Shown in pieces: positions 579-4,222 of a stretch of 64,000 nucleotides of DNA (position 1 is the stretch's first letter; the number at the start of each line of letters is the position of its first letter). Location of the stretch: assembly GCF_010681825.2 (NCBI RefSeq), contig NZ_CP066776.1, positions 372,001 through 436,000 on the forward strand, written 5' to 3'. Position numbers and translations under genes: made by a program. The notes under the pieces are model-generated. The model ran no database searches. It was not told where the DNA came from and saw only the letters and a list, made by a program, of their open reading frames with translations. This stretch comes from Sulfuriroseicoccus oceanibius (GTDB lineage Bacteria; Verrucomicrobiota; Verrucomicrobiia; Verrucomicrobiales; SLCJ01).

Positions 579-1588
579 CCATGCACGCGCGGCGCTGGAG
601 GGACGGCATTCCTGCCGTCGATGGGAAATCTCACGCAAAGCCCCAAAGATCCCAAAGACCGACCAGCTCCGGCGAAGGGAAAGGCCGGTTCGGTCACCGC
701 AGATCGCATTTTCTTCCGAGGATTGGCAGGATGGCGAGGATTAGAAGTGGGTCCCGGTAAGTCACTCAGAATGACGGGAACCACTCTCTACCACAGGAGT
801 GTGGCAGCTCCATCTCAACACACTCTGCCACCATTCCCCGCTGGACCAACGACACTCCTGTCGTTGCGCGTAAAACTCCGTCGCGATTCCAGCGTGCAAT
901 CCATGCACGCGCAGCGCTGGGGGGACGGCATTCCTGCCGTCGATGGGAAATCTCACGCAAAGCCCCAAAGATCCCAAAGGACGACCAGCTCCGGCGAAGG
1001 GAAAGGCCGGTTCGGTCACCGCAGATCGCATTTTCTTCCGTGGATTGGCAGGATGGCCAGGATTAGAAGTGGGTCCCGGTGACTCACTCAGAATGACGGG
1101 AACCGCTCTCTACCACAGGAGTGTGGTAGCTCCGTCTCAACACACTCTCCCTCCATTCCCCGCTGGACCAACGACACTCCTGTCGTTGCGCGTAAAACTC
1201 CGTCGCGATTCCAGCGTGCAATCCATGCACGCGCAGCGCTGGGGGGACGGCATTCCTGCCGTCGATGGGAAATCTCACGCAAAGCCCCAGAGATCCCAAA
1301 GACCGACAAGTTCCGGCGAAGGGAAAGGGCGGTTCGGTCACCGCAGATCGCATTTTCTTCCGCGGATTGGCAGGGTGAGGAGGATTTGAAGTGGCTCGCG
1401 GTGAGTCACTCAGAATGACGGGAACCACTCTCTACCACAGGAGTGTGGCAGCTCCATCTCAACACACTCTACCACCATTCCCCGCTGGACCAACGACACT
1501 CCTGTCGTTGCGCGTAAAACTCCGTCGCGATTCCAGCGTGCAATCCATGCACGCTCAGCGCTGGGGGGACGGCATTCCTGCCGTCGAT
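579..1588. repeat. Tandem array of a 322-bp unit, 3.1 copies, each with three perfect hairpins
   Basis: The same sequence recurs with an exact 322-bp period: landmark GGACGGCATTCCTGCCGTC falls at 601, 923, 1245 and 1567. Copies differ by scattered substitutions and no length change. Each unit carries hairpin A (CCACA-GGAG-TGTGG at 791, 1113, 1435), hairpin B (CAACGACA-CTCC-TGTCGTTG at 847, 1169, 1491) and hairpin C (GACGGCA-TTCC-TGCCGTC at 602, 924, 1246, 1568). In copy 2 stem A extends to 7 bp. Reading frames through the array are repeats of each other and look non-coding. The array fills the whole gap between the ABC gene and the helicase and ends about 90 bp before the likely helicase start. 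Confidence 0.95.
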
Positions 1589-1678
1589 CCCTCGACTCCG
1601 CCTCGCTCACGGTTGAAGAACCAAGTCCCCCTCTCGCTTACACTTGCAGCTCCGGCACATCTGCCCTCTGTTGGGGGC

Positions 1679-4222
1679 GTGGCTGATCCGGTGAAACTCG
1701 AACCTCTGAAGGGCGCGTCCAACGACGACGTACTCAACGCATTCCTCAACTGGCTGGTGGAAACCGGCGTCGATCCCTACGACCACCAGGAAGAGGCCAT
1801 CCTCGAGCTGTTCGACGACAAAAACGTCATCCTCAACACTCCCACTGGATCCGGCAAATCGCTGGTCGCGCTTGCCGTTCATTACCGCGGACTGTGCCTG
1901 GGGCGCCGCTCGTTCTACACCGTCCCGATCAAAGCCCTCGCGAACGAGAAGTTCCTCTCATTGTGCCGCACCTTCGGCCCTGAAAATGTCGGCATGATCA
2001 CCGGCGACGCCACCGTCAACCGCGACGCTCCGATCATCTGCTGCACCGCGGAGATCCTCGCCAACATCGCCCTGCGCGAAGGCGAAAATGCCCAGGTCGA
2101 CGACGTGATCATCGACGAATTCCACTATTACTCCGACCACTCCCGCGGAGTCGCATGGCAGATCCCGCTGCTGGCCTTGCCTCAATCGCGCTTTCTTTTG
2201 ATGTCCGCCACGCTCGGCGAGACCAAGTTCTTCGAAGATGAACTGACCACCCTCACCGGAGCCGAGACCGTCTTGGTCAAATCCGACCAGCGCCCAGTGC
2301 CGCTCGAGTTCATCTACAGCGAAACCCCACTGGCAGAAATGGTCGAAAGCCTGGTGCAAAACGACAAAGCACCGGTCTATCTCGTCCATTTCGCCCAGCG
2401 AGCATGCGCCGAAACCGCACAAAGCCTGACCTCGGTCAACTTTTGCTCGAAGGAAGAAAAGCGCGAGATCGCCGAAGCACTGCACGAGGCGAATTTCCGC
2501 AGCCCGTATGGCAAAGAGGTGAGCAAACTGCTGCGCCACGGCATTGGCATCCACCACGCCGGGTTGCTGCCAAAATACCGCGTGCTGGTGGAAAAGCTCA
2601 CCCAGCGTGGGTTGCTCAAAGTCATCTGCGGTACCGACACCCTGGGCGTCGGGGTGAACGTGCCCATCCGCACAGTCGTCTTCACCCAGCTTTGTAAGTT
2701 CGACGGGCAGGGCACGAAGATCCTCACGGTGCGCGATTTCAAACAAGTCGCCGGCCGCGCCGGACGCCGCGGGTTCGACAACATAGGCTACGTCGTCGCC
2801 CAGGCACCGGAACACGTGATCGAGAACAAAAAGCTCGAAGCCAAAGCCGCCGCCAGCACGAAAAAGCGCAAGCTCATCAAGAAGAAGCCACCGGAGAAGG
2901 GCTACGTGGCATGGGACGAGTCCACGTTCCGCAAACTCATCAGCTCGCCGTCGGAGAAGCTGGTCTCACGCTTCAAGGTCAGCCACAGCATGCTGCTCAA
3001 TGTGATGGCACGGAAGGACAAGGACGGCTGCGCCGAACTGAAACGGGTGATCGCCGCGAGCCACGAGACCGATCAAGCCAAGCGCAAGCACCGACGCCAG
3101 GCATTTGCCATGTTCCGCGGGCTAGTGCGGGGTGGGGTCCTCACCATCATTCCGGAGGAGGAACGCACATCGGATGTGAAAGTGCGCCTCCACGTCGACC
3201 TGCCTGATGATTTCTCGATGAACCAGGCACTCGGGCTTTACCTGCTCGACGTGATCCCACAGCTCGACCGCGAATCCCCAACCTACGTGCTGCATTTGTT
3301 GTCGCTGGTCGAAGCGATTCTCGAAAACCCGATGGCGGTGCTGGTCGCCCAGCAAAACAAAGAAAAGACCCGCCTCATCAACGACCTCAAGGAAGAAGGC
3401 GTCGGCTATGACGAGCGGATGGAACTGCTCGAACAAGTCGAATGGCCGAAACCCGACAAGGACTTCATTTTCGACTCGTTCAACCGCTTCATTGAAACCC
3501 AGCCGTGGATCGAAGCCGAAAGCATCCGCCCGAAATCGATCGTGCGCGAAATGTTCGAGGAGTACATGAGCTTTGAGGACTACGTCAAAGAGTACGGCCT
3601 CGAACGCTCGGAAGCCGTGCTCCTGCGCCACCTCTCGGATGTCTACAAAGTGCTCGAGCAAACCGTGCCCCCCGGGTTGAAAACGGACGAGGTTCTCGAA
3701 GCCCAGGAATACCTCGGCGACCTGCTGCGCGGCGTGGACTCCAGCCTCCTCGACGAGTGGGAGCGCATGCACCACCCGGAACAAGCTCTGGAAGAAAAAG
3801 CCGAGGCCAAACCTGAAAAGGAAGTCCCGATCAGCCGCAGCAAAAAGGCATTCACCCGTGCCGTGCGCCACGCCATCTTCACCGTGGTCAAAGAACTCTC
3901 ACACGACCGCGTGACCTCGGCTCTCACATTGATCGAGCCCGACGACGGAGACGGCGAAAAGTGGTCGGTGCCACGCTTGGATGCCATCCTCGACGACTAC
4001 TACGACGGTCACGAGTTCATCCGCCTCGACCCGGAAGCGCGCAATGCCAAGCATGCCCACATTTCCGAACTGCCAAACGCACGCCGCTGGCGCGTCGACC
4101 AGGTATTGATCGACTCCGACGAACACAACGACTGGGTGCTGGTGGTCGAAGTCGACCTCGACGCCTCGGACGCCAAAGGCGAACCGGTTCTGACACTCAA
4201 ATCACTCGGACCGATCGCCTGA
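1679..4222 (+). CDS. Ski2-like DEAD/DEAH-box helicase (DUF3516 type)
   Basis: A superfamily 2 ATP-dependent nucleic-acid helicase of about 847 residues. Walker A (TPTGSGKS, near residue 54), motif II in the form DEFH (near 145), motif III SAT (near 176) and motif [12 protein letters not shown] (near 358) are all present. The long C-terminal part matches my memory of the DUF3516 helicases of actinobacteria and some PVC bacteria. The open frame runs back into the 322-bp array to base 1391, but that part only translates repeat sequence. I therefore place the start at GTG 1679, with GTG 1691 as an alternative. RNA processing or turnover is a likely role but is not shown by the sequence. Its stop codon abuts an inverted repeat at 4223-4263. 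Confidence 0.88.

Follow-up and report, generated by a model that had tools for sequence, protein, structure and literature searches.

Several described systems pair short palindromes with a dedicated protein. For the group-3 TnpA-REP proteins, certain loop bases are required and the stem must be paired, its sequence mattering little; the foot sets the cleavage site (PMC8266576). Pseudomonas fluorescens carries tandem REPIN clusters with flanking sequence, one beside each RAYT (PMC3116915). It has also been proposed that symmetric REP pairs are purged (PMC3733652). Here, we compare these systems with a tandem array in Sulfuriroseicoccus oceanibius. The window is the whole stretch of DNA that was analysed, 64,000 nucleotides of contig NZ_CP066776.1 (372,001 to 436,000). 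Positions are those of the window unless the genome or a separate locus is named.

The tandem array and its modules

The array spans positions 579-1588, where TRF reports a period of 322, 3.1 copies and 0% indels. On one side of it the gene for an MsbA-like ABC exporter ends (stop at 542), and on the other a helicase gene of DEAD-box/DUF3516 type starts near 1691. A reading made from the sequence alone had described the array as exact, with copies that differ by substitution and never in length. The statement about length stands over all of 579-1588. Exactness of sequence does not; the three full units are pairwise identical at 302-309 of 322 positions and 23 of the 322 columns are variable. 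The helicase frame, taken at its longest (1391-4222), begins at GTG 1391, within the last array unit. The start near 1691 is more likely than this GTG. Hence, automatic annotation would overextend the gene.

Ten hairpins were located letter by letter. They have three stem types: C (n = 4), A (n = 3) and B (n = 3). Read on the strand bearing the 5′ foot, all ten carry the apex CA[CT]TCCTG, so the common apex on three stem types noted by the sequence-only reading is confirmed. As DNA, the first copies of C and B fold at -7.3 kcal/mol (z -7.0) and -7.1 kcal/mol (z -4.7), respectively. The features are as follows.

579..1588, no strand: tandem array by TRF and unit identity; units 579-900, 901-1222 and 1223-1544, plus a partial fourth, 1545-1588 (44 bp)
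602..619, plus strand: REP C copy 1, GACGGCA-TTCC-TGCCGTC; foot CGCTGGAG at 593-600
924..941, plus strand: REP C copy 2; foot CGCTGGGG at 915-922
1246..1263, plus strand: REP C copy 3
1568..1585, plus strand: REP C copy 4, within the partial unit
788..807, minus strand: REP A copy 1, CTGCCACA-CTCC-TGTGGTAG, one G.T pair; foot GATGGAG on the minus strand at 808-814
1110..1129, minus strand: REP A copy 2, CTACCACA-CTCC-TGTGGTAG, 8 of 8 pairs standard
1432..1451, minus strand: REP A copy 3, one G.T pair
847..866, plus strand: REP B copy 1, CAACGACA-CTCC-TGTCGTTG; foot CGCTGGAC at 839-846
1169..1188, plus strand: REP B copy 2
1491..1510, plus strand: REP B copy 3
788..866, 1110-1188 and 1432-1510, no strand: REPIN A-B copies 1-3, head-to-head inverted REPs with feet inward and loops 59 nt apart
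624..785, plus strand: spacer module between REP C and the REPIN (unit positions 46-207), with copies at 946-1107 and 1268-1429; also dispersed

The 322-bp unit is built as a mosaic from modules that also occur dispersed in the genome. When it was compared by BLAST with 2.0 Mb of the genome, 80 dispersed, non-overlapping matches were found. These split, singly or in combination, into a 44-bp module that includes REP C, the spacer (~160 bp) and REPIN A-B (~80-95 bp). The spacer occurs elsewhere in the genome with or without REPs. A conserved RNA fold was sought in the spacer copies and none emerged, the consensus energy being just -3.4 kcal/mol on the forward strand. Both the window copy (624-785) and the dispersed copies contain the motifs CTCACGCAAAGACCCAAAGATCCCAAAG and CGCAGATTACAGGATTGAGGGGATT, which we take to resemble repeats found in numerous bacterial genomes.

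A fixed apex and foot on changing stems

Family counts cover 2.0 of the 3.5 Mb of the source genome unless another scope is named. Perfect tetraloop hairpins with a stem of at least 7 numbered 317 in 1.2 Mb. Apex CACTCCTG accounted for 79 and CATTCCTG for 45, against 31 for the next commonest; in a shuffled-genome control each apex occurred at most twice. Across the whole genome, ACAYTCCTGT matched 107 times and the reversed pattern 4 times. Other apices are thus far rarer, as the sequence-only reading required. The result did not depend on choosing the apex beforehand. In a foot-first search, the upstream foot CGMTGG was the sole query, and stem and loop were unconstrained. Among sites with at least 7 of 8 pairs, the loop was of 4 nt in 168, of 3 nt in 2 and of 5 nt in 1. 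For the 217 sites with at least 6 pairs, the loop was CTCC in 92 and TTCC in 56, together 148. Behind control loops of like composition, well-paired stems were nearly absent; the exception was one control pattern that itself contains TTCC.

The family foot is CGMTGG(A)(G/C), with TGGAG or TGGAC in most copies. Hence, the strict definition of a REP, with 5′ GT(A/G)G at the hairpin foot (PMC3686654), does not fit this family. The remaining hallmarks are present. The hairpins are short, numerous (172 copies in 2.0 Mb) and extragenic. Just 3 of 177 lie within predicted genes in a genome that is ~80% coding, and 2 of these 3 are array hairpins beneath a single over-extended gene start. Family density peaks at ~430-580 kb of the 3.5-Mb genome (430,000-580,000).

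All family stems share one 8-bp register behind the same foot. The stems of the array had been called unrelated. This cannot be maintained; positions are shared and the three types are connected via genomic stems one compensated pair apart, for example CTACCACA-CAACCACA-CAACGACA. Covariation was assessed in 46 distinct hairpins selected by foot and apex only. Cells were paired in 88.9% of cases, compared with 71.8% when shuffled and at most 59% when slid. Two-sided changes numbered 60 versus 18.6, bearing out the compensating changes against a fixed apex that had been put forward as a check. Counting from the apex, stem pairs 3, 4, 6 and 7 have many two-sided changes, and pair 5 rarely has them. 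Pairs 1-2 are invariant, but were fixed by selection in this alignment; 187 of the 217 foot-first sites, a set blind to the apex, have A-T and C-G there. We conclude that pairing is kept and stem sequence is mostly free, while apex and foot are not. Such a pattern is expected if something reads the tip and foot of the folded strand. Pairing between foot and loop (GGAG with CTCC) was considered as the cause of the fixed loop and rejected, since B has the foot GGAC yet the same loop. In addition, the feet of C vary with a TTCC loop and GTAG feet co-occur with CTCC loops.

Inverted pairing at conserved spacing, the mark of a REPIN, is also evident. There were 44 head-to-head REP pairs in 2.0 Mb, and loop spacing was 58-60 nt in 43 of them. 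REPINs of one cluster are not independent; the 44 pairs occupy 23 loci. No pair had identical stems (0/44). The fourth stem pair was C in one partner and G in the other in 41 of 44. This never-same-stem rule agrees with the proposed purging of symmetric pairs (PMC3733652) and is testable.

RAYT genes in this genome and in relatives

A search of the genome with PF01797 returned seven related proteins; the array REP family closely flanks none of these. One has two family REPs ~800 bp away, which is unremarkable because of the copy density of the family. PF01797 alone missed a further gene, for which a relative's RAYT was required as the query. That RAYT (G167:C97), whose flanking REPs have the CATTCCTG apex, matched genome positions 539,568-540,119. 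The corresponding open frame is as follows.

539,523-540,125 of the genome: resident RAYT, 200 aa; four family REPINs upstream and one family REP downstream

Hence, family REPs occur on both flanks of a RAYT gene (539,009-540,160 around the open frame), and a RAYT-type transposase, whose presence had been proposed as a check, is found next to the array family. The protein matches NF047646 weakly but specifically (E 1.4e-11; 44.5 bits, under the 80-bit cut-off). In a profile search, its best PDB match is TnpA-REP 4ER8 (E 2.6e-9), which is also the top Foldseek match of its structure model (pLDDT 88.9). The predicted fold is thus of the HUH/Y1 type and nearest TnpA-REP. The catalytic Tyr175 is present. 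The HUH motif is not intact and reads HVR; H is found at that position in 11 of 12 aligned. In related HUH nucleases, HVR in place of HUH would cost a metal ligand. Hence, the resident RAYT may be inactive. A dead protein is one possibility, a wrong base call at the HVR codon another.

Other hairpin-flanked genes were seen in the same genome. A second RAYT/REP system (L005 1193-2644, near genome position 3,235,262) has the foot ATGGAG and inverted pairs, with the different stems GACGGTG and TCGACG carrying common loops, TCCC/TCCT. Three IS200-like transposase genes (L001, L002 and L003) have hairpins of several stem families on their flanks, with loops of 3 or 4 nt.

Turning to relatives, the exact stem CAACGACA was confined to this genome among the 57 searched. 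The exact C hairpin gave nine scattered single matches in named genomes, three of them in one Bryobacterales genome. Across the class, CGRCATTCCTGYCG is present in 93 of the 286 genomes, many with one or two matches that may be chance, and matches to the reversed pattern are far fewer. Genomes with many matches are G090, G082, G167, G159, G303, G260 and G278. The REP family is absent from the sole congener examined, and hence there is no clean empty site; the helicase orthologue of the congener has no ABC gene within 1.5 kb upstream.

RAYT loci of the class were picked by the RAYT protein and not by hairpin. Around them, 99 footed hairpins lay within 700 bp and 3 beyond 1.5 kb, counts that rest on unequal amounts of sequence as many loci have little DNA past 1.5 kb. 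The loop contained TC in 86 of the 99, in 27 of 30 loci; the others were GCC, CCCT and CCCC. Feet of the flanking REPs were GGAG at many loci and GTAG at others. On stems ending ACA, NTC(C/T) loops recur in several families, with both GGAG and GTAG feet. As the sequence-only reading had asked of relatives, RAYT-adjacent hairpins retain the loop type on different stems. RAYT relatives across one bacterial class differ in feet and loops.

RAYT genes of relatives also occur in frame within long open frames and have host domains on both sides, namely ClpB (two families), leucyl-tRNA synthetase, HsdR and MmeI/Eco57I-type restriction-methylases. At 12 of 47 loci, the RAYT lies within a frame of more than 400 aa. 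The placement looks intein-style, without an intein. Examples, in locus coordinates, are as follows.

L189, 3438-6788: in-frame RAYT
L253, 331-3561: in-frame RAYT
L254, 211-3459: in-frame RAYT
L251, 661-3594: in-frame RAYT
L185, 2695-7089: in-frame RAYT
L247 and L250: in-frame RAYTs

Interpretation and comparison with known systems

The array is very probably a tandem cluster of a REP/REPIN family, non-autonomous mobile DNA served by a RAYT (TnpA-REP) that reads tip and foot. Single-stranded copies of the family would fold into hairpins, and the strand recognised by the RAYT would be the one bearing CA-YTCC-TG at its apex and TGGAG/TGGAC as its 5′ foot. If the stem need merely be paired, stems would drift through compensated substitutions, with foot and loop held constant. 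The mosaic unit would have been multiplied in tandem later, via unequal exchange or slippage, which would keep copy length constant. We infer apex binding and past movement of the repeats by the RAYT at 539,523 or its ancestor, and ordinary recombination for the tandem step. Recognition of the apex by protein or RNA had been suggested by the sequence-only reading; a protein of RAYT type in this role is well supported by the family-flanked gene in the same genome and by the loop type near RAYTs of relatives. Present activity of this RAYT is doubtful, judging by its motif.

Two variants concern the protein. The second RAYT, near 3,235,262, could move the repeats in place of the one at 539,523. 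Its motif is intact (HVH), and among its own REPs the foot is likewise ATGGAG, with a TCCC/TCCT loop on two stems. However, it is flanked by those REPs, the array family is absent within 1.5 kb and instead flanks the 539,523 gene. We regard this variant, which does not exclude the resident RAYT, as rather unlikely. Alternatively, the HVR protein would lack nuclease activity and be retained as an apex binder at ~200 or more extragenic sites. The fixed apex and obligate two-stem pairing would then serve host DNA organisation or regulation and not transposition. To this we give a low probability.

The remaining explanations dispense with reading of the apex by a RAYT. Sharing of the apex by descent alone, unrecognised, accords with all stems being one family linked by single steps. 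Indeed, duplication explains the array itself, so that the earlier claim of its insufficiency fails there; the common apex characterises the dispersed family as a whole and not this array in particular. Four stem pairs have many two-sided changes, but apex and foot have none, and at unlinked RAYT loci of other families this loop class recurs on different stems. Plain duplication is hence highly improbable. An element acting as RNA, in which the hairpins would terminate transcripts, stabilise mRNA or be bound by an RNA-binding protein (CsrA, for instance), would suit the extragenic placement and the G.T pairs of some stems. On the minus strand, moreover, the loop is GGAG/GGAA in an ACA..UGU stem, like the GGA-in-loop motif. 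Yet CsrA is absent from the genome, loops CTCT, CTCA and CTTT break the GGA motif, and G.T is not clearly commoner than A.C (8 versus 6 at positions 3-7, the usually unpaired outermost position being excluded). Furthermore, nothing within the window matches Rfam above the gathering score, and inverted REPINs place opposite strands in every transcript. We consider this account very unlikely, and the REPs may have secondary effects as RNA.

Returning to tip and foot reading by a RAYT, the family amounts to a natural mutational scan, with dozens of stems set against one loop and one foot. The choice of REPs by RAYTs hence becomes testable outside Proteobacteria, the source of existing biochemistry.

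This is a REP/REPIN system in every other REP and REPIN character, the strict GT(A/G)G foot excepted. As in P. fluorescens (PMC3116915), inverted REPs have fixed spacing, are extragenic, form tandem clusters with flanking sequence and cluster at a RAYT gene. Unlike there, the foot is GGAG/GGAC and not GTAG, REPIN stems always differ, and the mosaic further includes REPs of a third type as well as the long spacer, itself dispersed. BIMEs of Escherichia coli (REP y, z1 and z2; PMC8266576) are likewise mosaics of REP types and motifs, with heterotypic pairs and a RAYT of the 4ER8 fold. However, E. coli stems are bulged and the enzyme tolerates loop changes, whereas here it is the loop that is conserved, on a perfect stem. 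Group-3 TnpA-REP systems of Stenotrophomonas and Marinomonas (PMC8266576) similarly combine perfect short stems, a need for specific loop bases and a largely free stem; their loops are GCT and TTTA with a GTAG foot, in contrast to YTCC with GGAG/GGAC. The verrucomicrobium O. terrae also has abundant REPs in several families per genome, but these are tagged GTAG/GTGG (PMC3733652), a distinction drawn from description and not from sequence. New here are the GGAG/GGAC foot, obligate heterotypic REPINs, the class-wide TC-loop rule and a resident RAYT bearing HVR. The proposed mechanism goes beyond precedent only in its particular foot and loop.
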